Shown piece by piece: positions 1 to 64,000 of a DNA stretch of 64,000 bases (the first letter of the stretch is position 1; each line of letters begins with the position of its first letter). The notes below the pieces were generated by a model that did no database searches, had not been told where the DNA came from, and was given only the letters and a program-made list of their open reading frames with translations. This DNA comes from Daphnia pulex. Lineage: Eukaryota; Arthropoda; Branchiopoda; Diplostraca; Daphniidae. The translations under genes and the position numbers were made by a program. The stretch spans positions 1,178,001 to 1,242,000 of the forward strand of contig NC_060019.1 of assembly GCF_021134715.1 (NCBI RefSeq). The letters run 5' to 3'.

Positions 1-346
1 TTTGCTAATGTGTATGCCCTGGTCAGTAGGCGTAATTGTTTTCATGGCGGTTAACAGTTTGAACTACAAGATTATGAGAATATTCAACATACTGTGGGCA
101 ATTTTCATTTTCATCATCTTCGTCTGTAAGCCGAGCGTGTGGAAGCTGCTCAAACTCAAGTTCCCGTGGATTAGTCCCTTCCTCTCGACTTGTGAAAAAC
201 TCGGGTCAAAGATAATCTGTTTGAAAAGCGAACATCAACCACTCGTTACTGATGAAGAAAAACCATCTAACTCGAAGAACACGGCCGGCATTAGCGGTAA
301 GTTTACCCAAATTGGCTATCAACGCCATACCGAATCGACGGTCTGA
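1..346 (+). CDS. methuselah-like GPCR A, 3' part of last exon only
   Basis: This is the C-terminal end of a class B-type methuselah-like seven-helix receptor, entering from the left edge of the window. The frame starts at base 2 inside a membrane helix. It reads LLMCMPWSVG, then a second hydrophobic helix with IFIIFVCKPSVWK, then a cytoplasmic tail rich in Lys and Ser ending at a TGA. The motif after the last helix (CKPSVWK.LKLKFP) is shared with receptors B-F at 41-63 kb. Shared words such as LLMCMPWS and MRIFNILW make receptor F the closest relative. It lies on the plus strand, opposite to B-F, and next to the left arm of the inverted repeat. The rest of the gene lies outside the window, so whether it has an ectodomain cannot be told. 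Confidence 0.85.
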   Translation, partial: LLMCMPWSVGVIVFMAVNSLNYKIMRIFNILWAIFIFIIFVCKPSVWKLLKLKFPWISPFLSTCEKLGSKIICLKSEHQPLVTDEEKPSNSKNTAGISGKFTQIGYQRHTESTV

Positions 347-1019: not shown

Positions 1020-1189
1020 ATTTTATTTTATGAATTTTATTTATCTGTACAGTCATGCAATATGACGCTTTGAAAAAAAAAGAAAAAGAAAAGAAAAAAA
1101 AAAATTAAAAAAAAATGCAAATTTTCCAAAACTGAAATTAAGCCAATCCTCTTCAAATCCAACCCCAAATTACTCCCCCAAAGCAAGAC

Positions 1190-1852
1190 TTAAAGCCGAC
1201 GAACAGGTGTTATTTTTCGCCGTGAGTTCAAAACTGACCTGAGGTCCTGCTGAACTCCCTCGACTTTTTCTTTTCGCTTTAAATCCAGAAGGGACCTGAG
1301 ATCTCCACCCTCCCCAGCAGTCACGTTCGGTTTGGACCCAATTCCCGTCAATTCCACGATCCGGCCGCGGTCGGACAAGTTCACGACCAATAAGTTCTTC
1401 AAACGGTTTCCGCGATCGGGTTGACGGGTCTGGTGTCCTTTACCGATTTTGCCAGTTGGTAAGGTCTTGAATCGGTTGGTGTTCCGGACGGACAGGTGCT
1501 GATTCGGTTCGGGATTAGTAGCGATGCGACGTTGGCGATTGTTCGTTTTGTCTCGTGGCAAGTTACGCCCAATCTCCTCGACGTCTTCATCAACTTCCAT
1601 TCCGTTACCTTTCAAGAGGGGACTGACACCTTCGTCCATTTTCGGGAGTTTGTTGGATCTTTTGAGACGAATCTTCTCTCCAATATTACGCAGCCCAACA
1701 ACATTTAACTCGGCGGATGTTTTGACCAAACGAATTCGTTGGGGTCTGCGGTGTCGAATATCTTCATCCTCGTACTCACAGGTGCGCTTTCGCTTCTCAG
1801 ACTCAGACAAAGAAAGACATTGAAAGAGAAAACAGAGATCTGCCATTTTCAA
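1190..1852 (-). CDS. unrecognised basic protein, copy 1 (220 aa, intronless)
   Basis: A single-exon frame encodes 220 residues. I do not recognise the family. The protein is strongly basic and has no signal peptide or membrane helix. A KRKR cluster near residue 20, followed by an acidic patch (EYEDEDI) and an Arg-rich stretch, suggests a nuclear protein. The C-terminus carries an internal repeat: DLRSLLDLKRK at about 184-194 and DLRSVLNSRRK at about 203-213. The second Met (MADL) could also be the start. It is divergent from the myosin V tail gene, with about 580 bases between the starts. An AATAAA signal lies downstream on the minus strand near 1035. The duplicate at 28081-28743 differs at about 11 residues and is also fully open, while the adjacent myosin gene is broken in both arms. 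That contrast suggests this protein is still under selection. Confidence 0.6.
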   Translation of the reverse strand: MKMADLCFLFQCLSLSESEKRKRTCEYEDEDIRHRRPQRIRLVKTSAELNVVGLRNIGEKIRLKRSNKLPKMDEGVSPLLKGNGMEVDEDVEEIGRNLPRDKTNNRQRRIATNPEPNQHLSVRNTNRFKTLPTGKIGKGHQTRQPDRGNRLKNLLVVNLSDRGRIVELTGIGSKPNVTAGEGGDLRSLLDLKRKEKVEGVQQDLRSVLNSRRKITPVRRL

Positions 1853-2099
1853 ATTTTAGTTTTGCAAACTGAAATTACTTTGTTTCAAACGGGCTTTCCT
1901 TTTATTTGCCTTGGCACTGCAGCCGTTGTTCGCAAAATGAATTTCCTCTCATTTTTCAAGTTTTATTAATTTAATTTCGATTTGAATAATTTTAAATCAT
2001 AATATAATTAAAGTTTATATTTTTACCAATCTATTTCAACAAAATTCAAATCAATAAGTTTTTTAAAGATATTATATTTTAAATAAAAACGACTCCGAT

Positions 2100-2339
2100 G
2101 TGACGTAAATGGGCGTGGCTTTTTCAAAATGCTTACGATGTGCTTTGATTTTGATCCTTTGAAGCACGCAATTTTCTCTAATTTTCCAGTTTTATTATGT
2201 CATCTAAATTCATTATAAATTTAATTAAAGCTGATAAATATAGGAATAAATTTAAAAAAAAATTCTAATCGATAAGTGTATTTCAAAATTTTTATCTTTA
2301 GATGAAAACGACTCCGCTGTGACGTTAAGAGGCGTGGCC
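2100..2339. promoter_or_regulatory. shared divergent promoter with two TGACGT + GGCGTGGC modules (arm 1)
   Basis: The spacer between the 220-residue gene (minus) and the myosin V tail gene (plus) contains a module twice. TGACGTAA (2101-2108) is followed by GGGCGTGGC (2111-2119), and TGACGTTA (2320-2327) by GGCGTGGCC (2331-2339). Both are preceded by a GACTCCG word. TGACGT resembles a CRE/ATF half site and GGCGTGG a KLF/Sp1-type GT box; factor identity is inference. Both modules are kept in the other arm (about 27600-27640 and 27810-27845). Confidence 0.5.
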
Positions 2340-2433
2340 TATTTTAAATGGCGACATTGTTTCTTGTTTCTTCAGCCTTTTACGTCCTGTTGGTGTGTCT
2401 CCCTCAACTCTTTCAATCGTTAATAGATTTAAA

Positions 2434-5433
2434 ATGGTAAGAAAGCTTTTTTTTTGTTAGTAATTCTGTGTTTTGTATGTGTAAGTAGACGAAATGAACC
2501 AAGATGAGTTTACTAGTTTAGTAGCAAGCAAAAGGTTTTCATTAGCATGTTGTGTAGCCTGTGAAGCCTATGTGAGACTAAAATGGATTTTACTTAATTG
2601 GAGAAGCGAACGATGCTCAAATCATAATCATCAAAACATTTTGTATTGTTTAATAATTAGTAGTTGATTAGATTCACTGATTTCTAACATAACTTCTTTG
2701 TCGTGGTCATTTTTTGAAACTGATGAAACCTCGTCATTCATCATTCACTAAGCTAAAGCATTGAAATACTAGCTTAAAATATTCTACTAGGAATTATTTT
2801 CTGGTTTGCCAAACAAAATGAACATACATTTATTTTACAATATTCGAAAGTCTGCTATTCTAATTTGTAAACAAATATGACTTATTTAGGAGGAGCAGGT
2901 GGAAGACGCTGAAAGAGAACTTGAACACCTTCATGAGGAACCAGAAAAAAGCAGCAAGAGTCGTGAAACTATTCGTGGTCATTCTCGCAACGCTTCGAAC
3001 ATGAGTACGCCCAATAATACCAGTGAATTGATCGCAGATCCTGAAGATGATGGTGGCTATGGATCTGTTCGTCATGTTCCTAATCGGTTGCACAGCGAAG
3101 ATGTTGGTCTGGTCCTCAAGCTGCAACAGCGGTTGAAGACTGTTGAAAAAGACAAGGCATCATTGGCGACTAGGGTTGAAGAGTTGGAGCGCGAAAGTCC
3201 GACTGCCGATGTCAGGAGAGCTCAGGACATGATACGCTTGCAAGAGCTCGAAATGGAAAACGCCAAGATCAAAGATGACTTGAAGAATCTTCGTCGTCAA
3301 GCTGCAACAGAGAATGAGGTTCAATTGCCCCGCAGTCTGGATATGCTGATGAGCCAATTTGATGCCATGTCCGACGAGTTCGATCGACGACGAGAGGAAT
3401 ACGAACCCTGTTGGCTTTCACGACTCTTGGAGGTGACATTGGTGAGCAAACTACACTGAACGCATCGCGTCTAAACGGAGGAGAGCCCTTTGCTGAAGAC
3501 AACGAGATCCTGAAGGCTTTTGAATCTCAAAAGCGTATCATACGGCACCTAGAAAATGAATTACAGGAAGAGAAAGCCTCGTCTCAGCGGAAGATTCAGA
3601 TTGAAAGAGAAGAAGTTGAACGTCTGCGATTGGATAATGAACAGCAGGCAAAGCTTCGTGCTGGGGCCTTACATCGGACGCCACAAGGACAAACCGATGC
3701 TGTCATACAGCATGAAATTTCTCGACTCACGGCTGACAATTTGGATCTCCAGGAAAAGAATGATTTGCTATCCGAGCAACTCAAAAAGTACAGATCGCAG
3801 ATGGAATTGGCGAAGAAGGTGAAGCAGGAGGGTGTACCTGCCGAAAATTAGGAAGCCAGCCCTGAAGTGCATGAAACAGTTTATTCGAGTCGCAGGAACG
3901 AAAGAAGCGAATCATCGCTGCTGGTTGTTCGTAAAAAGGAAACGAATTACCTTGGGATGTTTGATTTTAACATGGGCGACGAAAAGCAGATCGCCAGGAA
4001 TCTCGTCTATGGTGAGTCCTTTTGGTGATGTGACGAACAAAGTAAATTTATAACAATTTTTTCGGTTTGAATTTCTAGAACTTAAACCAAGCGTTGCGTC
4101 AAGTCTGTTACCCGGTCTTCCGGCATACATCATTTTTATGTGTGTCCGACACGCAGATTACATCAACAGCTACGAGAAAATCAGATCTTTCTTAAGTCTG
4201 ATTATTAACGCTATTCGTCGACTCATTAAGAAACGCAATGAGGATCTGGACACTTCAGTTGTCTGGTTAGTCAACACGTGCAGACTTTTACACAGTCTAA
4301 AGCAGTACAGTGGAGAAAAGGTATGTTTCAATTTGCAAGCGTTGGCCATCTAATTATTTAAATCATCTAACATGTAATTGATTTTTACAGAACTTCCAAG
4401 AGGAAAATACTCCGAAACAAAATGAACAATGTTTGAGGAATTTTGATTTGTCAGAAACCCGACAAGTTCTTAGTGATATCGCTGTTTGGATTTATCAGGT
4501 GACTTTTTCTTAATCGTGAAACTAATTGAACTGATGAAATAATTGCAATATTTATTAGGCGGTAATCAAATTTATGGAAGAGCGTGTTCAAAAGCTTATT
4601 GTCACTGCGGTGTTGGAACATGAAGTCATCTCTGGACTATCTAGCCAAATGCAACCAGTGGAAGAGAGCGGCCGAGCGAGGTAATTGATGATTATTTATA
4701 AACCAAAAGTTTCCAATCTTATACTGTCTGGCAATTACAGATCGGGGTCAGCGAGGGATACCACAAGTCCTGTTGTTCCACAAGAAGCGATCGCACATTT
4801 GTAGACCCAACGCTTATCGCCCAAGCTTTCCGCCAGGTATTGCCTTCGTGCATATTTGTAGGTTACATACATTTCTTCATTCAATACTTAACTTTTCTCC
4901 TTATTTGTCAGGTATTCTATTACATTTGTGCGTGCGCATTAAACGACCTACTGCGTAAAGAAATGTGTCACTGGTAGAAAGGCTTTCATATTCTGTGCAA
5001 AATTTCCCGTCTCAAACAATGGCTGCGTGACCAGGATATTCATGGACAGGACACTATGAGTTCTTGTATCGTAGATACCCTGCAGCCTATTATCCAAGCC
5101 GCATGGTTGTTACGTTTTTTAAAAGCTAGAGAATCCGACGATGACGTCAGGCATATTTGCACCATGTGTTCCCGATTAACCAGCGCTCAGATCATCAAGA
5201 TTCTGAATATGTACGCGCCAGCCGATGAATTGGAAGATCGAATTCGCATTTCTTTTATCCGCAAAGTGCAGGAAGAATTGGAAAAACGAACCAACCCGCA
5301 GTCACAGAGCAAATTGCTAATGGATACCGAACACGCATTTACGGTGCGTTTCCCGTACAGTCCATCATCGATCAATTTAGAAGACATAGACATTCCGACC
5401 GTAGTAAATCTACCAATGTTGAAGAAGGTTTAA
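2434..5433 (+). pseudogene. myosin V tail-only gene, copy 1, broken
   Basis: This matches the coiled-coil and globular (DIL/dilute) tail of class V myosin; the motor, neck and first coils are missing. A short first exon ends in ATG at 2434-2436, directly followed by the donor GTAAG. The main coiled-coil exon starts at 2890 (EEQVEDAEREL). Later exons are 4079-4320 ([19 protein letters not shown], typical of the myosin V tail), 4391-4498, 4559-4680 and from 4741 on. The last exon ends with PSYSP-type tail sequence FPYSPSSINLEDIDIP. Lesions compared with the other arm: a 10-base deletion near 3400 shifting the frame, CAG to TAG at about 3849, a deletion of about 46 bases near 4797, and a stop within MCHW*KG near 4976. 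The intact gene is presumably elsewhere; this copy is very likely non-functional as a full tail. Confidence 0.85.
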
Positions 5434-5735
5434 GATCATTTGTCCTCCCCTTGCAGATGTGTTATGTTCTTATCGAAGCATTCCGTTGGTGTGTGTTAAG
5501 TATTGAGGAACGAAATGTGTTTGGCTGCAAACTTTTCGAAGCTATCTGCGGCCATTTGTTCTATGTAAAATAAGAAAGTTCTATGTAAAATAAGAAGAAA
5601 TGAGTTATCATTGATACTAAGTACAGTTTAATAAGAAAAGAACAATGAATTGATCTGCAAAATATTTCTGTTAGTGACCTGCTTTGGACTCACGATATTT
5701 GCGAAAACAGAGAACTATATATTTTTACTTACAAA

Positions 5736-16767: not shown

Positions 16768-17779
16768 TTAAGGAGACGGGGGGATACATGGTTCTTGCCA
16801 TCCTTCAATGTTGGAGATTCTTTCCACGACTTGGGATGATGAAATCCTCTCTGCAGGATCGGTGTTCCACATGTCCATGATGATATCGTGCATGGGATGC
16901 CCCTCTATTTCTGCAATGAATGCAAAACATAAAATTCAATTTGTCATTAAAATCTGATTCGTAAAAGGGAACATACCATTCATATTGACTGGCCTGGCGT
17001 TGAGAATGTTTTTTGGAATTTCATTTCTTTTACCGTAAGGATGTCTTCCGCCTAATAGATAATAGGCAAAGACTAGCCCTTCGGAAAAGACATCGCTCTT
17101 GACGGTTCCTCTTTGACGAATGGGATTTGCCACGTTTTCTCCTTCTACCGATTGTGATGAAGTTGTTTCCGATTGCATCCTACATATTTCAAGGGCATAC
17201 CAATCTTCTGATCCCTTAAATTCAGAACTAATAGAATGAGTTCCTCTTTCGCTGACTGGTTTACTAAGTCCAAAATCAGCCCATTTCATTAAAACTTTTT
17301 CTCTAATGGAATCCACCCAGATGAGGACGTTTTCCGGTTTGACATCTCGATGGATCAATCTCTGTTCATGAATGTGTTCCATTCCTTTGGCCAACTGAAG
17401 ACAAACATCTTTTTTTGTCGCGGGCATAGGCCCACGATATTTGTTCGGGTCCGTCTCTTGCAAAAATAGGTGATCCAGCGATGCCACGCAAAATTCCAGC
17501 ACATAATATCTAATGAAAAAAAATTAAAATTTGACCTCCTTATTCATTATTGTTTAAAAAAAAATTTACTTGAAATTTTGGTCGCTTTGAACGTCAAGAA
17601 GTGTTATGACATTATGATGGTCACACTGTTGCAGTGCGGTCTCTTCTCTTTCGTTGGTGCGTTCTATTTCAATTCGCTTGACGGCAACCCTCGTCTCCTC
17701 CCAGGTTCCTTCGAAAACGTACCCGTATCTCCCTTCTCCTAGAATTCTGTTCCTGTTGATTACTAACGTCGGCGAAACA
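16768..17779 (-). CDS. IRE1-like protein kinase domain without RNase domain (5' end unresolved)
   Basis: Three exons are read on the minus strand: 17570-17779, 16977-17509 and 16768-16910. They join in frame for about 295 residues. The order of kinase motifs is complete: glycine loop GEGRYGYV, lysine in VAVKRI, helix C Glu in EREETALQQ, catalytic loop HRDVKPEN and Mg-binding ADFG. In the APE position it reads YALE, and the F-helix Asp is in VKSDVFSEG. LEFCVASLDHL and KGSEDWYALE correspond to the IRE1 kinase pattern. The protein ends soon after the C-lobe (DPAERISSSQVVERI), so the KEN endoribonuclease domain of true IRE1 is absent. Upstream of 17779 the frame needs another exon that I could not fix; a candidate lies near 17870-17930. 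Whether an N-terminal domain exists is unknown. Confidence 0.78.
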
Positions 17780-23735: not shown

Positions 23736-24431
23736 CTTTAACGCGCAAGAATGAAGATTGAAGAGAATGAATAAGTAGTGTCCCCTATATCTTATTATAT
23801 TAGTGCAATTAGACAGATTGAAAACAAAGCAAAAGCTATCTCACTTCTAGCTCACATCTTTGCTACAAATAATTTCAATAATAATCTCAAACATGGAAAA
23901 AATTGTTTTACAGCCTTCGTCTTATTAAGACAATGTTACGTGATGTTTCAAAAAAATTTTAACGAGAACATAATAGATGAAATTATCGCAATCAAAAATA
24001 TGTATTCAATTTAATAAATCAACACAGCAATGAAACGGCTGAATTAACTGATTTCGAAAGGTGGGGATTTCCGCCAACTGACTAATAGAACGGAAATAAT
24101 ACAGTGCATAACTTGAAATGAACTACGGAACAACATCTTTGGAATAATGAACATGGCAATGAAAAAAAAATTCGCAAAGATCGTGAGTCCAAAGCAGGTC
24201 ACTAACACAAATCTTTGGCAGATCATTGTTCTTTTCTTATTAAGCATCATTGCAGTTTGTTCTTGTACTTAGTATCAATGATAACGCATTTCTTCTTATT
24301 TTAACTAGAACAAATGGCCGCAGTTAGCTTCGAAAAGTTTGCAGCCAAACACATTTCGTTCCTTAATACTTAACACTCACCAACGGAATGCTTCGATAAG
24401 AAAATAACACGTCTGCATGGGATAAATGATC

Positions 24432-27400
24432 TTAAACCTTCTTCAGCATTGGTAGATTTAAAACGGCAGGAATGTCTATGTCTTCTAGTTTGATTGAAGA
24501 TGGGCTATACGGGAAACGCACCTTAAATGCGTGTTTGGTATCCATTAGCAATATGCTCTGTGACCGCAGGTCGATCCGTTTTTCCAATTCTTCTTGCACT
24601 TTAAGGATAAAAGAAATTGGAATTCGATCTTCCAATCCATCAGCTGGCGTGTACAGATTCAGAATCTTGATGATCTGAGCGCTGGTTAATCGAGAACACA
24701 TGGTGCAAATATGCCTGACGTCATCGTCGGATTCTCTAGCTTGTAACAAATGTAACAACCATGCGGCTTGGATAATAGGCTGCAGGCTATCTACGATACA
24801 AGCACTCATAGTGTCCTGTCCATGAATATCCTGGTCACGCAGCCATTGTTCGAGACGGGAAATGTTGCACCGAATCTGAATGCCTTTCGACCAGTGACAC
24901 ATTTCTTTACGCAGTAGGAGGTTGTTTAATGCGCACGCACAAATGTAATAAAACACCTGGCAAATAAGGAGAAAAGTTAAGTATTGAATGAAGAATGGTA
25001 TGTAACCTACAAATATGCACGAAGGCAATACCTGGCGGAAAGCTTGGGCGATAAGCGTTGGGTCTACGCCATATAACTGCAACACTTCGTGGAAAATGGT
25101 TAACTCGCGCAATAAATGTGTGATCGCTTCTTGTGGGTCAACGGGACTTGTGGTATCCCTCGCTGACTCCGATCTGTAATTGCCAGACAGTATAAGATTG
25201 GAAACTTTTGGTTTATAACAATCATCAATTACCTCGCTCGGCCGCTCTGTTCCACTGGTTGCATTTGGCTAGATAGTCCAGAGATGACTTCATGTTCCAA
25301 CACCGCAGTGACAATAAGCTTTTGAACACGCTCTTCCATAACTTTGATTACCGCCTAATAAATATTGCAATTATTTCATCAATTCAATAAATTTCACGAC
25401 TAAGAAAAATCACCTGATAAATCCAAACAGCGATATCACTAAGAACTTGTTGGTAGTTTAGTTTGACAAATCAAAATTCCTCAAACATTGTTCATTCTGT
25501 TTTGGAGTGTTCTTCTCTTTGAATGTCTGTAAAAATCAATTACATGTTAGATAATAAGATGGGAAACGCTTGCAAATCGTAATTTACCTTTTCTCCGCTG
25601 TACTGCTTTAGACTGACTACAAGTCTGCTCGTGTTGACTAACCAAACAACCAAAGTGTCCAGATCCTCATGGTGTTTCCTTATTAGTCGACGAATCGTGT
25701 TAATAATCAGAGTTAGGATAGATTTGATTTTCGCATCGTAATTTATGGAATCAGCGTGTCGGACACACAAAAAAATGATGTATGCCGGAAGACCGGGTAA
25801 CAGAGTTGACGCAACGCTTGGTTTGAGTTCTAGAAATTCACATCAAAGAAATTGTTATGAAGTTACTTTGTTCGTCACAACACCATAAGAACTCACCATA
25901 GACGAGATTCCTGGCGATCTGCTCTTCGTCGTCCATGTTAAAATCAATCATCCCAAGGTAATTCGTTTCCTTTTTACGGACAACTGGCAGCGATTCGCTT
26001 CTTTCGTTCCTGCGACTCGAATAAACTGTTTCATGCACTTCAGGGCTGGCTTCCTGATTTTCGGCAGGTACGCCCTCCTGCTTCACCTTTTTCGCCAATT
26101 TCATCTGCGATCTGTACTTTTTGAGTTGCTCGGATAGCAAATCATTATTTTCCTGGAGATCCAAATTGTCAGCCGTGAGTCGAGAAATTTCATGCTGTAT
26201 GACAGCATCGGTTTGTCCTTGTGGCGTCCGATGTAAGGCCCCAGCACGAAGCTTTGCCTGCTGTTCATTATCCAATCGCAGACATTCAACTTCTTCTCTT
26301 TCAATCTGAATCTTCCGCTGAGACGAGGCTTTCTCTTCCTGTAATTCATTTTCTAGGTGCCGTATAATACGCTTTTGAGATTCAAAAGCCATCAGGATCT
26401 CGTTGTCTTCAGCAAACGGCTCTCCTCCGTTTAGAAGCGATGCGTTTAGTGTAGTTTGCTCACCAATGTCACCTCCAAGAGTCGTGTTAGCCAACAGGGT
26501 TCACAGCTGAATACATTCTTCTCGTCGTCGATCGAGCTCGTCGGACATGGCATCAAATTGGCTCATCAGCATATCCAGAATGCGGGGCAATTGAACCTCA
26601 TTCTCTGTTGCAGCTTGACGACGAAGATTCTTCAAGTCATCTTTGATCTTGGCGTTTTCCATTTCGAGCTCTTGCAAGCATATCATGTCCTGAGCTCTCC
26701 TGACATCGGCAGTCGGACTTTCGCGCTCCTACTCTTCAACCCTAGCCGCCAATGATGCCTTGTCTTTTTCAACAGTCTTCAACCGCTGTTGCAGCTTGAG
26801 GACCAGACCAACATCTTCGCTGTGCAACCGATTAGGAACATGACGAACAGATCCATAGCCACCATCATCTTCAGGATCTGCGATCAATTCACTGGTATTG
26901 CTGAGCGTACTCACGTTCGAAGCGTTGCGAGAATGACCACGAATAGTTTCACTCTTGCTGCTTTTTCCTGGTTCCTCATGAAGGTGTTCAAGTTCGTCAA
27001 GTTCTCTTTCAGCTTCTTCCATTCGCTCCTCCTAAATAAGTCATATATGTTTACAAATTAGAAAAGCAGACTTTGGAATATTGTAAAATAAATACATGTT
27101 CATGTTGTTTGGCAAACCAGAAAATAATTCTTAGTAGAATATATTAAGCTAGTATTTCAATGCTTTAGCTTAGTGAATGATGAATGACGAGGTTTCATCA
27201 GTTTCAAAAAATGACCACGACAAAGAAGTTATGTTAGAAATCAGTGAATCTAATCAACTACTAATTATTAAACAATACAAAATGTTCTGATGATTATGAT
27301 TTGAACATCGTTCGCTTCTCCAATACTTAATTGGCAATTAAGTACAATCCATTTTAGTCTCACGTATAGGCTTCACAGGCTATACAGCTACACAACATGC

Positions 27401-27501
27401 TAATGAAAACCTTTTGTTTGCTAGTAAAACTCATCTTGGTTCATTTCGTCTACTTACACATACAAAACACTGACTCACTAACAAAAAAGCTTTCTTACCA
27501 T
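24432..27501 (-). pseudogene. myosin V tail-only gene, copy 2, broken
   Basis: Same structure as the copy at 2434-5433. ATG is at 27499-27501 directly before the donor, the main coiled-coil exon starts at 27031, and globular-tail exons run to 24432. The stretch LRKEMCHWSKGIQIR through ALNNLL and LPMLKKV is intact here and is the clearest match to the class V DIL domain, which binds cargo adaptors. Lesions differ from copy 1: TTG to TAG near 26730, CGA to TGA near 26507, and a frameshift with a TAA near 25450. The 46-base and 10-base deletions of copy 1 are absent. Both copies lack the motor, so the truncation came before the duplication and the disabling mutations after it. Confidence 0.85.
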
Positions 27502-27599
27502 TTTAAAAATCTATTAACGATTGAAAACAGTTGAGGGAGACACACGTACAACAGGACGTAAAAGGATGAAGAAACAACAAACACTGTCGCCATTTTTAA

Positions 27600-27845
27600 A
27601 ATGCCACGCCCCTTAACGTCACAGCGGAGTCATTTTCATCTAAAGATAAAAATTTTGAAATACACTTATCGATTGGAAAATTTTTTGAAGAATATTCCTA
27701 CATTTATCAGCTTTAATTTAAATTGAAATGAATTAAGATGACAAAATAAAATTTGGAAAATGAGAGGAAATTGCGTGCTGCAAACATCGACCCAACCACG
27801 CATTTTGAAAAGGCCACGCCCATTTACGTCACATCGTAGTCGTTT
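27600..27845. promoter_or_regulatory. shared divergent promoter modules (arm 2)
   Basis: The two CRE-like plus GT-box modules of arm 1 are present in reverse complement: GCCACGCCCCTTAACGTCAC at about 27603-27622 and GCCACGCCCATTTACGTCAC at about 27813-27832. Confidence 0.5.
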
Positions 27846-28080
27846 TCATTTAAAATATAATATCTTTAAAAAACTTATTGACTTGATTATTGTTGAAATA
27901 GATTGGTAAAAATATAAACTTTAATTATATTATGATTTAAAATTATTCAAATCGAAATTAAATTAATAAAACTTGAAAAATGAGAGGAAATTCATTTTGC
28001 GAACGAACGGCTGCAGTGCCAAGGCAAATAAAAGGAAAGCCCGTTTAAAACAAAGTAATTTCAGTTTGCAAAACTAAAAT

Positions 28081-28743
28081 TTGAAAATGGCAGATCTCTG
28101 TTTTCTCTTTCAATGTCTTTCTTTGTCTGAGTCTGAGAAGCGAAAGCGCACCTGTGAGTACGAGGATGAAGATATTCGACACCGCAGACCACAACGAATT
28201 CGTTTGGTCAAAACATCCTCCGAGTTAAATGTTGTTGGGCTGCGTAATGTTGGAGAGAAGATTCGTCTCAAAAGATCCAAAAAACTCCCGAAAATGGACG
28301 AAGGTGTCAGTCCCCTCTTGAAAGGTAACGGAATGGAAGTTGATGAAGACGTCGAGGAGATTGGGCGTAACTTGCCACGAGACAAATCGAACAATCGCAA
28401 AGGTCGCATCGCTACTTATCCCGAACCGAATCAGCACCTGTCCGTCCGGAACACCAACCGATTCAAGACCTTACCAACTGGCAGCAACCGAAAAGGACAC
28501 AAGACCCGTCAACCCGATCGCGGAAACCGTTTGAAGAACTTATTGGTCGTGAACTTGTCCGACCGCGGCCGGATCGTGGAATTGACGGGAATTGGGTCCA
28601 AACCGAACGTGACTGCTGGGGAGGGTGGAGATCTCAGGTCCCTTCTGGATTTAAAGCGAAAAGAAAAAGTCGAGGGAGTTCAGCAGGACCTCAGGTCAGT
28701 TTTGAACTCACGGCGAAAAATAACACCTGTTCGTCGGCTTTAA
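28081..28743 (+). CDS. unrecognised basic protein, copy 2 (220 aa, intronless)
   Basis: Duplicate of the frame at 1190-1852, same length, with about 11 amino-acid differences. The changes cluster in the middle (KSNNRKGRIATYPE against KTNNRQRRIATNPE; TGSNRKGHK against TGKIGKGHQ). The N-terminal acidic/basic region and the C-terminal DLRS repeat are unchanged. There is no stop or frameshift. AATAAA lies near 28868. It is divergent from the myosin V tail pseudogene, as in arm 1. Confidence 0.6.
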   Translation: MKMADLCFLFQCLSLSESEKRKRTCEYEDEDIRHRRPQRIRLVKTSSELNVVGLRNVGEKIRLKRSKKLPKMDEGVSPLLKGNGMEVDEDVEEIGRNLPRDKSNNRKGRIATYPEPNQHLSVRNTNRFKTLPTGSNRKGHKTRQPDRGNRLKNLLVVNLSDRGRIVELTGIGSKPNVTAGEGGDLRSLLDLKRKEKVEGVQQDLRSVLNSRRKITPVRRL

Positions 28744-29065
28744 GTCTTGCTTTGGGGGAGTAATTTGGGGTTGGATTTGAAGAGGATTGGCTTAATTTCA
28801 GTTTTGGAAAATTTGCATTTTTTTTTCTTTTTTTTTCGATGCGTCATATTGCATGACTGTACAGATAAATAAAATTCCTAAAAACCATAAAACCAATGTG
28901 TCTTGTCTTTTTATTATTAACAATATGCCGAAACAACAACAAAAACTTATTTTAAACAATAACGACAACAACAAAAATGTAGTTTGTATCCATCACACGA
29001 TTTGCACAACAACCCTTTCTCAATCAGAAAGGCAAATTACTAGGCGGTCGGAGCGAATAACAACG

Positions 29066-37139: not shown

Positions 37140-37645
37140 TTTCATGTGCTTATATGTCAAGAACATGTGCTTATGTCAAGAACATGTTCTTTTGTCAAGA
37201 ACATGTTCTTATGTTAGTGATTAAGAGCGGTACGTTTAAGAATTGTTTGCTTCTGTCAAGCACATGTGCTTGTATGTCAAGAACATGTGCTTATGTCAAG
37301 ATCATGTGTTTATGTCAAGAACATGTTCTTATGTCAAGAACATGTTCTTATGTTAGTGATTAAGAGTGGTACGTTTAAGAATTGTTTGCTTCTGTCAAGA
37401 ACATGTGCTTATGTCAAGAACATGTTCTTATGTTAGTGATTAACAGCGGTACGTTTAAGAATTGTTTGCTTCTGTCAAGAACATGTTCTTATGTCAAGAA
37501 CATGTTCTTATGTTAGTGATTAAAAGCGGTACGTTTAAGAATTGTTTGCTTCTGTCAAGCACATGTGCTTGTATGTCAAGAACATGTGCTTATGTCGAGA
37601 ACATGTTCTTATGTTAGTGATTAAAAGCGGTACGTTTAAGAATTG
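37140..37645. repeat. higher-order tandem array of a perfect palindrome
   Basis: The basic unit is about 19 bases, TATGTCAAGAACATGTTCT, centred on the palindrome AAGAACATGTTCTT or its variant AAGCACATGTGCTT. The ten-base core GAACATGTTC occurs eight times. The units are grouped into blocks separated by a conserved 45-base spacer containing GATTAAGAGCGGTACGTTTA, which occurs five times (starting near 37214, 37353, 37434, 37514 and 37614). The period of the higher-order repeat is about 80-140 bases. Confidence 0.9.
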
Positions 37646-56488: not shown

Positions 56489-58784
56489 TCAGAAAACAGA
56501 AGACTCAGATTGACCTGTTGTAAATTTTAAAAAAATGTGAATTAAGATGCAGTTTTCTTTCGAAAAAATGTGTTGCGACAACCGTGTTATTGGTAATTGG
56601 AAAACTTGTTTCATGTCTGCTGTCGAATCGGTATTTAGAGTTTGTTGGGAAGTTTTGTTATTATTATTACTGCTGATGCCATTGCTTTCTTTAGCACTAG
56701 CAGATTGATGGAGGTTTCTTTTCTTGGGAATTATACGGGAAACTTTTTCACAGGCCGACATGAAGGGGCTCAATCGTGGGAACTTTTGTTTCAGCATTTT
56801 CCAAACGCTCGGCTTACAGACGAAGATGATGAAAATGAAAATGGGCAAAATGATGTTGAATATGTCGGTGACCAGGGCACTTTCGAAACTGGAATCCGCT
56901 AAAAAAGTAATAATTTCGGTTGTCCACGGAACACCCATCAACAAGAAGAGACTCAGGATCACTTTAAATCTGTAATTAGAAGTGACACATCAATTAATGA
57001 TTAGTTTGCAATCATCAATGTAATTATGGCTACGAATAATAAATACCTTTGGCCATTATGCGAAAGGTTAGTCACCTGCGATGATTCGGAACTTCTCTGG
57101 TAAAAATTTAACGCAGCCCAAACGAACATGAAAACGTTGGCAGCAATCATGACCATCATCGGAGCGTACAGATATACAATTAATGGTCCTCTATGTTTAT
57201 CTGGTAATGAAAAAGTATAATTCAATGATTGGTTTATTGTATGATGATTATGTGTGTATAACTTACGATTAAACCAGCAGTACAATTTTGAAGCCAATCC
57301 TGGTTTAATGATGTCGTCTGGCACATCGCTGTGCTGGAGGATTTGTCCGACAACCACGACAATGAATGGAATACCCCATCCGTAAAGGGAGGAATAGAAA
57401 AACTGCTCACCCAATACGAATGTGCGAGTCGGAAGACTGATGTAACTGGAATATGAGACAAAGCTGATTTAGTTCTAATAAATCCCAGATAAACCCGTGT
57501 CAATAAAAGAATTTAAAAATAATTATTTACCTAAGCATCCGCCAAACTCCGTAGCACAAGACGTTTAGCCAAGAAAAACTGGCGATATAGGCAAAATGCA
57601 ATGAAATTGCTGCAGAAAAAAAAGAATTTTTAAATTAATAATTCTACATTACAAAAATGGAATTGTGAAATCAAATCGATTTACCTAACGTTGAACAAAG
57701 ACCGGGCGGCATATCGCTGCCTCTCACGAGCATCAGAATGGCATGAAAAACGTTCGTGACTGTCATGGAGGCCAAGTAACACATGACGACAACGCCGTGG
57801 AGGTTGCGCATTTTTGGCAGAATTGCATAAACCAATAAGGTAGCCACCAGAAATACCGTGGCAAAAAGATTCAAACATCCAAATAGAAACGCGCCTTTGG
57901 AATCTTCTCCTTGCTCAGGAAAACACACTAAAGCCACTAGTTTCTTAAATAAGAAATGCAATTAGGGTTTACTTCATTTGAATCCCATTTATAACTAAAT
58001 TTCTCACAATGTCTTCACCGTCAACTACATTATTTTCAATGCAATACTGGTCAGTTTTCTCGACGGGTAGATTTTCTAAATGAAGAACAATCTGGCCGTC
58101 GTGCCTTATCGAGAAATCTAATTGTTTATCTCGTGGAAGTTTACCGCATTTTATTCCGAGTCCGCCACGGGTAGAAAAAGAATTGGCGTCGATTGGTTCA
58201 TTTTTTGGGTTACGCAAAAGTGACAAATTAAACGGTACAGGATGCGGCTCACATATTGAAATTGGCCACAGATCATGATAATGTTTCGTGACCATGGCCA
58301 TTTCGGGAGGGCAACACTTTCGAATGCATACCGACTCACTGCAAGGATGAGGGACGCAATAACGAGCCACAAAATGTCCAGGCGATGTTGAATAATTTTC
58401 GTCTTCTACTCTGTTGATGCAAAATTCATTGGACTCCAACCGTTTGTTACCAACGAATAAGGTGCCGTTTTCCAGTTGAAAATCTTCCGTGGTGTGACTC
58501 ACGTAGCCAACCGGACAATCAGTCAAACCGTCGTTAGGATCCTCGAACGAATAATTTGGAAACGACTTGGTGTACAAAGTTGAGACAAAATTTGGCACGC
58601 ACTGATCCAATCCTGTCAGGTATGTAGTCCCACTTTTGCAGCACCGGATCTTCTCGTCGAATAAAATTTCTCGTAGGGTTGACGAATTTCCTTGGATTTC
58701 TAAAACAGTTCGATTTTCACTTGTGGCTGTGGCAAACCAAGCGATAAAAGTGAAAATCACTACGGGAGTGTAGTTCATGGTCAC
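56489..58784 (-). CDS. methuselah-like GPCR E (642 aa)
   Basis: Six exons: 58008-58784, 57685-57943, 57531-57609, 57267-57445, 57047-57200 and 56489-56969. All are in phase. The signal peptide is MTMNYTPVVIFTFIAWFATA; a second Met two codons in (MNYT) is equally possible. The ectodomain keeps most Cys, but CSESGCIRKCC reads CSESVCIRKCC and PPGM reads PPEM. The tail ends like that of D. The 5' region from about 58740 upward is duplicated at 63000-64000, ahead of receptor F. The same family function applies as for B. Confidence 0.92.
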
Positions 58785-59741
58785 AACAGGACAGCACGAT
58801 TGGTTGAGCTAAAACTCGACAATTTGGACGACAAGAATTTTCATTGAACCAAGTTGTTTCCTCTGCGTTGGATACTGCGACGTGAATCATGAGTTCTGCA
58901 CCTGGGAGTAAAACAAAAGAAGAAAGTTAAAATATCATACGATAGTTGGCATTTAAACACAGATGTCGAACAGCGAACACTTAATCAACCATTAAATTTG
59001 CCATCACTGAAACTAAGAATTAACTATGAATACTTGAAACACAAAAACGTAAATATGGCCATTTTATGTCGTTCAATTTCTTTCCCAACTATCGTACCAC
59101 AGGATTGTAACAAGGATCTGCTGCAGATTTAAGAGCCGCTGACGGCGCTGAATGATGTGCGCAGATTTTTTAAAAAATGAATCTAATATTATGGTCCAGT
59201 TTACCTTTTGTTGACTAACTGGATGTCAAAGTGATGCGTGACAGTAAATTCCAATGCTGGGAGAAATTGTGTTCCTACAGGAGATGTTGATAGGCCACTG
59301 TGCCGTTCACTTCTGCCAAACTTTCACTTTTCTCTCGACTATTCATCTTGTTTCTTGGCTACTAAGCAGCAACTATAGTCATACTCGACATGCCCTACAG
59401 TCGCAGACCTGACCCCAAATGGAACTGCAGGAAAAGAAATTTTTTTATCGTTGAGAATAAACCGCTAAATTGTCTTAACAGATTTGGAAAATGGCCAGGC
59501 TGCATGTATCTAGCTTCTCACTGGATAACGTTAGTGAGTAAATTGACAAATGCTATGGCAGATGACAAATTAAGCATTAAAAGTTAGTAGTATTTAAACT
59601 GTCACTCTTATTTAACCCCTGTTGAGATAAAACGCTTGTGTGTAACTAAAAAAAACCCAGAGGAATGAATGAACTTCTAAAAACCCTAACAGAAATCGAA
59701 ATAATTTGTACATCAGATATCGTCGAAGTGTCCTCAATAAA
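58740..59741 (+). repeat. recent direct duplication, copy 1 (5' end of receptor E)
   Basis: It matches about 63000-64000 almost base for base, including the first codons of the receptor and the whole conserved upstream block (59225-59470, with the short plus-strand frame MPYSRRPDPKWNCRK at 59390). The TATA-like sequence of units 2 and 3 is replaced by TCCTACAGGAG. Confidence 0.9.
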
Positions 59742-59939
59742 AAATTTGCATAGGAATAAAAGAAACTTTCCATTCTTATACCTTCTACGTTGCAGCCGAA
59801 TTCCCTCAAGGCTGGAAGTCACAGCAACTGGGTCTAAAAGTATCAACCGGTTTCCAACATCGACGCTGTGTATAACAACACAGATGTGAAATCTAAACTC
59901 GGCAGGATGGTGGCGTTACCTTGAGCGTGAAATCTTTTA

Positions 59940-60053
59940 CAGCCTAGCGCATCATATACCCAAAACAATGGTTACATTCATTAAAGACGGGCTGCCTTTG
60001 CTGGCGTCAAAACCGGTTTTGTACTTATATTCACGCTATCCCGCAAGACTATA
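59940..60053. mobile_element. short inverted-repeat (MITE-like) element, copy 5
   Basis: Ends CAGCCTAGCG and CGCAAGACTA; inside GCCTTTGCTGGCGTCAAAAC; about 114 bases; ends slightly degraded. Confidence 0.45.
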
Positions 60054-60947
60054 ATTAAAACTTTCCACCCTACTTTGTTTATTGCACGACGAATTTGATT
60101 TTAGCGATATACTTGGCGGATTTAGCGTGAGTATTAATACAATTTCAGAATATTGTTGGGGATTTTAATCATTTTGACTATACATTTGACTCTCTGTCCC
60201 TATGATAACGGTTTCGCATTTAAAAAACCAGTTGGAATGGCCTTTTACTCTCAGCAAATGGGAGCCAGGTTATTCCAAAGTCAAACTTTCACGAGCGCAT
60301 ATATGGGGACGCATTGGATGTGACTCACCAGATGCATGATTTCGGACGGTATAGGTGGGAAGAAAATTCCTCGATAGTTACTTGCGTCAACAGTCTCAAC
60401 ACAGCTGTTTAACCGGTTTAGAACTTGCTGTTATTCCTGACTTCCACGTCATTCCGACGGCATAAACATGAGAGTGACGTTATTTCTTATTTCGTTTTTA
60501 AACTTATATGCTTATAGCCGTAATTTAGCGACTATAGTTTAATATTGTCACGGGCGGGGTTGCGTTCACAAATACAGATGTGATGATGACGGAGCCTTGA
60601 TTTTGCCGTTCAATAAGAAACTGCCGAAAATCCTTTCGCCTTTCCACCACCAAGACAACACATGGACACACACCCAGACTCTAGACAAAGACCAACTACT
60701 AAGACTAAGACTAGAATTATAACAATTAAGATAACGACTATCAACGTTAAAAAGCTTAGGAAAGGGAGGGGGAATTTTCTTTTCTAGGAATTAAGGAACG
60801 TTGATCGACAATATTCTTTAAATAGTATAACGGAACTATCAAAAATAGAACGGACGAGAAATCTGCTGTATAGTAATTCTATACGGCATTCTGTACTATC
60901 CGCCAGCTTCGAAGTGTGATCCACTCTTTTACCAAATTAATCCGGAG

Positions 60948-61035
60948 CTGAGCAACATTTTGGAGCCTCAAAATTCCTTTTTGTCGTTATTAAAAAATAA
61001 TGCGTTTATTGGTATCGGTGAATTATAGTTTTAAA
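60948..61035 (+). pseudogene. relic of the MIF4G-like gene 3' UTR, unit 5
   Basis: ATCCGGAGCTGAGCAACATT, then CTTTTTGTCGTTATT and a TATCGGTGAATTATAG stretch, in the same order as after the stop at 40894. Confidence 0.7.
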
Positions 61036-61444
61036 AAATAAATCCTCTTTTGCATTAATATAATTATTGAATTGAGCGGAGATATACGTATGAACACACA
61101 AAACAGATGGTAAATTAATCTCATATGGCCGCGTCCATTTTGATCGTCAGAAACACTCTTATGAGGCGCTAAACGTTAGAAGTGCAATGGTGCATATAAT
61201 GATTACGTAGGTAGACTATACAATTATTAGTTATGATGTGGAATACTTGGATATTTACAAGGTCCAGACTTGTCCATCTACATTGCCACGAATCAATTTC
61301 CCGATACACAACACGTAATCTACTCTGACAGGTGGTTTGAGTGATTATTTTAATTGTTGTTCGATCAGCATCTGTCTTTACCCATCACTTTTACTCAGAA
61401 AGCAGAAGACAATGACCTGTTGTAAACGGAAAAAAAGGTGAGTC

Positions 61445-62838
61445 TCAATATAAAGCATGATTTTGAAATAAGTTATTTGGCAACCTCGTCAAAGGCAATT
61501 CAAAAACTTGTTTCGGGACATCAATCGAATCCGTCGATTCGGACGTTAGAGTTAGCTGGGAAGTTTTGTTATTGCTGCTGCTGCCAGTCATGTTGGAATT
61601 GCAGCTTTCTTCGGCACTAGCAGGTTGATGGCGCTTGATTTTCTTGGGGACTACGCGGGTACCCATTTTCTCACAGGTGGAGGTGAAGGGACTCAGGCTC
61701 GGGAATTTGAGTTTTAACATCTTCCACACACTCGGCTTACAGACGAAGATGATGAAAATGAAAATTGGCCACAGTATGTTGAATATTCTCATAACCTGGT
61801 GAACCTGGTAGTCGAAACTGATACCCGCCACGAAAATAATTATGCCAATTGACCATGGCATACACATCAGCAAAAAAAGAATCAGTATCACTTTAAACCT
61901 GCAATATATGTGCAAGTTTACGATTACATTTTAACTGAGAATAAAATTGACATACTATAAGTAATAGCCTACCTTTGTTTATTACGGGAAACGTTGGTCA
62001 CTTGTGACGATTCCACGCTTCTCTGGCAAAATTTGATCCCAGCCCAAATAATCATGATACAGTTGGCTCCGATCATGGCAATTATAGGTCCGTACAAATA
62101 CGCAATTAATGGCTCTCTATCGTTACCTATAAAGAAGTTATATCAACAATTTGTTTAGAAGTAGGTGCCTATTAAATAAAAAGATTTGTGTAACTTACGA
62201 TCAAACCAGCAGTACAATTCGTCTGACGCAAATCCCGGTTTAACGATGTAATCTGGCACATCGCAGTGTTGGAGGATTTGTCCGACGACCACGATGACTA
62301 ACGGAATTCCCCATCCGTAAACGGAAGAATAGAAAAACCGTTTGCTCCAGATGGGTGTCTGAGTCGGTGGTCTAATGGAACTGGAAAAAGTGAGACAAAA
62401 CTATTTAGTTGTAAAACTCACAACTGCAATTAAATCAACAGCGCTGTGAAACAGAAGTTATATAGATTTGTACCTAAACATCCGCCAAACTCCAAAACAC
62501 ACGACGTTGAGCCAAGAATAAGTGGCGATAAAGGAAAAATGCTGTGAAATTGCTGGAGGAAAAAATTGTCATTTTAAAACATATTTTTTTGGTGAAAATT
62601 GAGTATAATGAAATCGAAATTATTTACCTATTATAGAACAAAGACCGGTCGGAATATCAAGGACTTTAACGAGAAAACGTAAGGCCAAAGAGATGTTCAT
62701 GACGGTCAATGAGACCAAAAAACACATAACGTTCACAGCGTGGATGTTGCGCATTTTTTCATGAATAGAATAAACGATCAAAGTTGCGATCAAAAATGAC
62801 GTAGCAAAGAGAGTCAAACATCCAATGAGAAACTCCAT
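61445..62838 (-). CDS. methuselah-like GPCR F lacking the ectodomain (359 aa)
   Basis: Exons 62628-62838, 62474-62552, 62199-62380, 61973-62126 and 61445-61898 join in phase. They encode the seven-helix part from MEFLIGCLTLFATSFLIATL to a Ser-rich tail. The sequence corresponds to exons 2-6 of receptors B-E. The first exon (signal peptide and ectodomain) and the start of exon 2 are missing. The start Met at 62838 is in frame and aligns with the loop just before helix 1. A stop lies a few codons upstream. F is more diverged than B-E (WSIGIIIFVAG, NVMCFLVSLTVM) and is closest to receptor A. It has no frameshift or stop, so it may be expressed as a bare seven-helix protein, or it may be a young pseudogene. 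Confidence 0.75.
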
Positions 62839-62977
62839 CTTAGAATTTTTACTTAATCTTTATGGTTAATAGCTCTATACGCACTCTTGACTATATTGAA
62901 TTTGAAAATTATAAGGCGCCTGGAATGCAATGGCGTGTGGTGTCCTAGGCCACAACTGAGCAGTTGGTGCCCCCCAA

Positions 62978-63043
62978 TTAGTAGAGTTCAGAATATAATA
63001 TTTCGATAAACGCGAAAATCACTACGGGAGGATAGTTATCCAT
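62978..63043 (-). pseudogene. relic of a receptor E-type first exon (signal peptide only)
   Basis: The minus strand reads MDNYPPVVIFAF, the start of the receptor E signal peptide with one residue inserted, then leaves homology and stops after 21 codons. It marks the breakpoint where the duplicated 5' end of receptor E was joined to the F locus. Confidence 0.75.
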
Positions 63044-64000
63044 GGTCACAACAGGACACGATTGGTTGAGCTAAAACTCGGCAATTTGGACGACAAGAAT
63101 TGTCATTGAACCAAGTTGTTTTCTCTGCGTTGGATACTGCGACGTGAATCATGAGTTCTGCATCTGGGAGTAAAACAAAAGAAGAAAGTTAACATATCAT
63201 ACGATAGTTGGCATTTAAACACAGATGTCGAACAGCGAACACTTAATCAACCATTAAATTTGCCATCACTGAAACTAAGAATTAACTATGAATACTTGAA
63301 ACACAAAAACGTAAATATGGCCATTTTATGTCGTTCAATTTCTTTCCCAACTATCGTACCACAGGATTGTAACAAGGATCTGCTGCAGATTTAAGAGCCG
63401 CTGACGGCGCTGAATGATGTGCGCAGATTTTAAAAAATGGATCTATAATTATTATGGTCCAGTTTACCTTTTGTTGACTAACTGGATGTCAAAGTGATGC
63501 GTGACAGAAAATTCCAATGCTGGGGGAAATTGTGTTCCTACAGGAGATGTTGATGGGCCACTGTGCCGTTCACTTCTGCCAAACTTTCACTTTTCTCTCG
63601 ACTATTCATCTTGTTTCTTGGCTACTAAGCAGCAACTATAGTCATACTCGAATGCCCTACAGTCGCAGACCTGACCCCAAATGGAACTGCAGGAAAAGAA
63701 ATTTTTTTATCGTTGAGAATAAACCGCAAAAATGTCTTAACAGATTTGGAAATTGCCAGGCTGCATGTATCTAACTTCTCACTGGATAACGTTAGTGAGT
63801 AAAATGACTAATTCTATAGCAGATGACAAATTAAGCAGTAAAAGTTAGTAGTATTTAAACTGTCACTCTTATTTAACGCCTGTTGAGATAAAACGCTTGT
63901 GTGTAACTAAAAAAAAAAAAGATCAGGAATGAATGAACTTCTAAAAACCCTAACAGAAATCAAAATAATTGTACATGAGATATGGTCGAAGTGTCCTCAT
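63000..64000 (+). repeat. recent direct duplication, copy 2 (5' end of receptor E joined to F)
   Basis: It matches 58740-59741 and runs off the right edge of the window. It includes the conserved upstream block (63485-63740) with its short frame MPYSRRPDPKWNCRK. Confidence 0.9.

Follow-up and report, generated by a model that had tools for sequence, protein, structure and literature searches.

The window, that is the whole stretch of 64,000 nt analysed here (C3:1178001-1242000), holds part of an array of Methuselah-like receptor genes, in which full receptors, carrying an ectodomain, occur together with headless ones that lack it. The members of the array were located by tblastn and spliced alignment in a genome of 133,188,837 bases on 13 contigs; the spliced alignment places false short exons where weak matches end, and core exons only were used. 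Besides the gene under study, here called F, the array comprises the following members:

C3:1156568-1158804, plus strand: full receptor P0, left of the window
C3:1161351-1162684, plus strand: headless receptor N1, left of the window, open frame
From C3:1170533, plus strand: headless receptor N2, left of the window, frame broken by a 7-nt insertion
C3:1173915-1175242, plus strand: headless receptor N3, left of the window, open frame
From C3:1177015, ending in window 1-301, plus strand: headless receptor N4, broken by two insertions, one of 33 nt that contains a stop and one of 1 nt
Inside the window, minus strand: full receptors B, C, D and E
Window 56489-58778, minus strand: receptor E, full, with a signal-peptide-like start, a Methuselah_N ectodomain and 7tm_2
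C3:1246070-1243784, minus strand: receptor G, beyond the window
Beyond the window, after G, minus strand: H, degraded

The genes N1-N4 sit 61-80 kb from F and in the opposite orientation. A further array-type match is a fragment near C3:1175670-1175892, and a displaced array fragment at C3:2552477-2553744 consists of promoter-like DNA adjoining a helix 1-2 exon close to that of G. The window also contains an inverted duplication (1097-5576 and 24293-28836), made of pieces of 105-831 nt that are 88-98% complementary across a spacer of 18-26 kb, a minisatellite at 37143-37614 with a 19-nt unit and longer periods of 80 and 139 nt, and an open reading frame at 16936-17502 that we take, from its HRDVKPEN motif, to be part of a protein kinase. 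A tRNA scan of the window (bacterial settings) returned none.

F itself is a five-exon minus-strand gene at 62838-61445, and the locus, together with the partner copy of its upstream block, is composed as follows (window coordinates):

63004-64000, minus strand: E-type promoter, 5' leader and first 13 or so codons before F, extending past the window to about 65599 (C3:1243599)
62978-63043, minus strand: E-type start stub, 21 codons then a stop, reading MDNYPPVVIFAFIEILYSELY
62839-63003, minus strand: N-type non-coding leader without ATG, 87% identical to N1, and 80% to N4 over 68 nt
62838-62628, minus strand: exon 1 with the Met, helix 1 and helix 2, 4 differences in 211 nt from N1
62552-62474, minus strand: exon 2 of the headless frame
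62381-62473, minus strand: intron 2, between the second and third coding exons, N4-type, with 1 difference in 93 from N4 and 11 in 93 from N1
62380-62199, minus strand: exon 3 of the headless frame
62126-61973, minus strand: exon 4 of the headless frame
61898-61445, minus strand: last exon, N1-type to about 61715-61675, then a G-type C-tail to the stop at 61445
58742-61300, minus strand: partner copy of the upstream block, with the start and promoter of E, the E-F intergenic DNA and the 3' flank of F, at a direct-repeat spacing of 4,261-4,263

The preliminary description had seen in F an open seven-helix frame with a Met just before helix 1 and no ectodomain, and this description holds. The exons join in phase into a frame of 359 codons, which opens at a Met few residues upstream of helix 1 and runs without interruption to its stop, all four introns are GT-AG, and the product matches 7tm_2 (PF00002) with an E-value of 1.1e-15, above the curated cut-off. 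Its hydropathy profile has eight peaks, some of them overlapping and none at residues 74-114, which indicates several helices but not cleanly seven. N1 likewise matches 7tm_2, and Methuselah_N (PF06652) is absent from F and N1 at Pfam E-values up to 0.1; receptor E has both domains. The ten ectodomain cysteines are missing from F because its frame starts only few residues before helix 1 and includes no ectodomain. For the ectodomain of E, no solved structure was matched by sequence (E-value up to 1).

Upstream of F, a recent duplication of the DNA preceding E had been recognised, which places an E-type promoter and a few first codons, ending in a stop, in front of the headless frame. The promoter and the stub (63043-62978) were found as described, and the duplication is real, with 97% identity across the 621 nt adjoining the start, although it is longer than first given and continues past the window end to 65599. 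By blastn, F 65599-63004 and E 61300-58742 share 89.5% identity including gaps over 2,659 columns, and a global alignment of the block counts 133 substitutions in 2540 columns. The divergence is uneven along the block, ranging from 0.010 to 0.156 per 200 columns (chi-square 98.4, 13 d.f.), for which constraint and later conversion are both possible causes. At 4.26 kb, the E-F block repeat is shorter than the array units of 4.9-5.6 kb, which fits the expectation for a unit without ectodomain. Relatives of the E-type promoter stand before B, C, D, G and H, which makes it the array's usual promoter and no chance paste, and another lies at C3:2552477; beside P0 and N1-N4, no such DNA was found. 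Within the intergenic DNA, the stretch 60040-60760 is 91% identical to its copy at C3:1242324-1243059, parts of it diverging by 1-4% only, and weaker relatives lie between other array members.

Compared along its length, F draws on three sources, namely an E-type promoter with about 13 codons, an N1-type leader and helix core, and a G-type C-tail with its 3' flank. In gapless tiles of 50 nt, E is the best match at 63550-63051, mostly N1 (with some N4 and N3) at 62950-61701, and G from 61700 onwards; at 63000-62951 a repeat element interrupts N1, and that tile is accordingly closest to N3/N4. Contrary to a clean E-only end, the junction tile 63050-63001 scores highest with G (0.74, as opposed to 0.68 with E), which is explicable by an indel in the gapless comparison, since the blastn match to E reaches 63004. 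The helix region of F is 92% identical to N1, and N3/N4 tiles at times match F as closely as N1 does, so that the donor itself may be a patchwork. Intron 2, being N4-type, is evidently a separate conversion tract across the arms, as judged from its sequence. Over the last 76 codons including the stop, five codons distinguish F from G, two of them by an amino-acid change, and the divergence of F amounts to about 4% from N1 in exons and about 5% from the E block. Thus composed, F is very probably of mosaic origin. Tandem arrays of close paralogues are error-prone and a single assembly was examined, so the mosaic might be thought an assembly error joining paralogues; this we consider highly improbable, as F is several percent off each of its sources and the two intergenic copies, G-F and F-E, show differences along their whole length, so that F is no duplicate stretch of some other locus.

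The headless state has a history of its own. A Met stands just before helix 1 in all five headless genes, at a column where each of the six full receptors has Gly or Arg, so that Met-Glu/Asp replaces the Gly-Ala or Arg-Ala of the full receptors; in all five, the start context has A at -3 and G at +4. Frames are open and GT-AG splice sites intact in F, N1 and N3; the frames of N2 and N4 (two of the five) are broken. The 261 nt upstream of N1 occur at N1-N4 only, and F is without that DNA. Linker traces before the Met are retained in N2, N3 and N4, out of frame or cut by a stop further up. In a tree with four Daphnia Mth-like genes as outgroups (all with an ectodomain in spliced alignments; no insect sequences), F and N1-N4 form one clade with 100% ultrafast bootstrap, beside the array's full receptors (support 70).

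These observations bear on the cause that had been proposed for the missing ectodomain, namely a full receptor F that lost it at the breakpoint when the E promoter block was duplicated beside it. The E-type DNA does stop abruptly at 63004 before F, as such a cut would leave it. However, N1-N4 are headless without any E-type block and share upstream DNA and the Met, the leader of F from the junction to the Met is N-type DNA common to N1, N3 and N4, and the headless clade is monophyletic with full support, so that the helix core of F came already headless. A loss at F's own breakpoint is therefore very improbable, and with the shared Met and the support of 100 the loss of the ectodomain is older than F; the best reading of the sequences is a single, earlier loss on the stem of the headless genes.

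It would likewise be improbable, to nearly the same degree, that F obtains an ectodomain from an exon far away or, through trans-splicing, from one of its neighbours. F is flanked on both sides by full receptors that have ectodomain exons, but of the 15 ectodomain matches in the genome none is found in the stretch from G to F or upstream of F and N1-N4, an in-frame TAA stands 24 nt before the Met in both F and N1, and N1 has not retained the acceptor that is conserved ahead of helix 1 in the full genes. At C12:7166477-7167041 lies an orphan piece of a Methuselah-type ectodomain, 73-74% identical to E and interrupted by frameshifts and a stop, with no helix match to F nearby.

For the formation of F we propose three steps. 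In the first, a full receptor of the older branch would have lost its ectodomain once and acquired, together with different upstream DNA, a Met immediately ahead of helix 1, giving rise to N1-N4. In the second, an unequal crossover between E and G would have produced a hybrid receptor with an E-type 5' end, a G-type 3' end and, on either side, a copy of one intergenic block; the G-F and F-E intergenic blocks, which are mutual copies, together with the G-type tail and the E-type start of F, point to one such crossover. In the third, repair synthesis templated by the opposite arm would have brought a headless segment into the E/G hybrid, the joints being formed through homology in the last exon and at a few shared bases (ATCG) near codon 13. 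The N1-type core is located exactly within the E5'/G3' hybrid, and N-type DNA on both flanks of N1 argues that N1 is native and F the recipient. The order given here for the crossover and the segment transfer is tentative, since the divergences overlap, at about 4% for F-N1 and about 5% for E-F. The leader of N1 is split by a 946-bp repeat (C3:1160245-1161190; inverted ends CACTGTTAAAA), of which two near-full-length copies at 96% occur on C8, besides further partial ones; as F is without this element, the transfer used a version lacking it or preceded its insertion.

Whether the headless copies are maintained was assessed with one-, two- and three-ratio codon models, the frameshift bases of N2 and N4 having been dropped beforehand, on a codon tree that assumes no array-wide gene conversion, although conversion does occur. 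The dN/dS is 0.33 on full and 0.56 on headless branches; the headless value is higher than the full one (p 0.0014) and lower than 1 (p 2.8e-5). On the headless stem it is 0.58, not distinguishable from 1 (p 0.07). The F/N1 lineage has 0.46, which is below 1 (p 0.026) and does not differ from that of the other headless branches (p 0.53), and this branch test takes in the shared stem, thus being no test of F alone. Taken as a pair, F and N1 have a dN/dS of 0.56 that cannot be told apart from 1 (p 0.21). Values below 1 are obtained when either is paired with the intact N3 (F-N3 p 0.026; N1-N3 p 0.01).

Polarised with N2-N4, the changes derived in F number 15 at 862 coding sites (8 replacement and 7 silent), 10 in introns (the converted intron included) and 4 in the leader, with 6 coding differences that this comparison could not assign. 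Substitutions between F and N1 show no exon-intron contrast (34/862 in exons, 8/210 in introns 1, 3 and 4, p 1.0). An apparent contrast in which introns differ at 27/306 and exons at 34/862 (p 0.0016) was rejected because intron 2 of F is N4-type and intron 3 is misaligned pairwise. Indels between F and N1 are rarer in coding sequence (one of 3 nt in 862 sites) than in introns 1, 3 and 4 (5/210, p 0.0014) or, with the leader added, in non-coding DNA (9/355, p 1.1e-4), a contrast that hinges on the alignment of short AT-rich introns. All five coding indels among F, N1 and N3 are multiples of three. We conclude from these substitution and indel patterns that the headless clade appears to be under relaxed but real constraint; the few changes in F hint only weakly at recent constraint of its own.

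The same data allow F and the other headless copies to be non-functional relics, open by chance and through mutual gene conversion, which is a real possibility short of an even chance. The insertions in N2 and N4, the headless dN/dS above that of full receptors, the missing exon-intron contrast of F-N1 substitutions, and an F that carries upstream ATGs without the N-type upstream DNA would all be in keeping with decay. Headless dN/dS below 1, also in the pairs with N3, the few coding indels in steps of three, and the GT-AG sites kept in F, N1 and N3 speak against it. The best explanation overall, and one that we hold to be somewhat more probable than not, is that F is a three-source mosaic from which translation at the conserved Met would give a headless receptor.

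The Met of F stands in the context noted above, and no ATG occurs within 202 nt upstream, so that a transcript starting inside the N-type leader would be translated cleanly from it. Within 500 nt upstream of the Met, a transcript from the E-type promoter would carry ten ATGs, the nearest being that of the stub at -205, and leaky scanning or reinitiation would be needed to reach the Met. Splicing from a donor in the E-type leader (63467) into the N-type leader, thereby skipping the upstream ATGs, was considered and rejected, no strong acceptor being found there; in a scan with a small position matrix built from the array's own introns, every one of the eight best acceptors listed is upstream of 63003. 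If translated from the conserved Met, F would give a receptor of 359 amino acids with an N-terminus of a few residues. Without an ectodomain, ligand capture through it is impossible, and such a receptor would either signal without it or act as a modulator of the full-length receptors beside it. Being under the promoter common in the array, F might pair with these neighbours and modulate them, and among the candidate roles we would guess at this one. The roles put forward in the preliminary description, as a decoy, a constitutively active receptor or a dimer partner, may each apply, and so may decay. That F makes a working headless protein is, taken by itself, tentative and tilts somewhat towards doubt, and it would be unlikely that the fuller picture applies throughout, in which Daphnia keeps a working headless Methuselah lineage and a conversion-built F, with a full-type promoter and tail, is co-expressed with its neighbours and tunes them.

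If the headless copies work, they offer a natural test of class-B-like Methuselah helices without an ectodomain, with intact full-length relatives in the same array as controls. Should they be relics, the reshuffling of parts in a tandem array is nonetheless clearly recorded at this locus. It displays, base by base, how two steps, a crossover and a cross-arm conversion, can provide a gene with another promoter and another tail.

In the open part of PubMed Central, no report of headless Daphnia Methuselah genes was found. F is best regarded as a receptor of known kind in a new form, whose origin seems well resolved and whose function is uncertain. With Methuselah and Methuselah-like receptors (PF06652 and PF00002, e.g., Drosophila Mth) it shares the class-B-like 7tm_2 helices. 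In the tree with Daphnia outgroups, the headless clade falls beside full receptors of this kind from the array. F differs from them in having neither an ectodomain nor an in-frame signal-peptide exon and in starting at the Met before helix 1. Drosophila Mthl1, Mthl5 and Mthl14 resemble F in joining the family's 7TM region to no recognisable Mth ectodomain (PMC4768249). They are said to bear other or divergent ectodomains (PMC4768249, PMC3655951), whereas F is without one, having lost it secondarily. A further parallel is splice variant 1 of GHRHR, a class B receptor form in which an altered N-terminus is reported to go along with changed constitutive signalling (PMC8501799). That variant arises by splicing from an intact human gene and differs at the N-terminus only, whereas F is a separate gene without any ectodomain exon.
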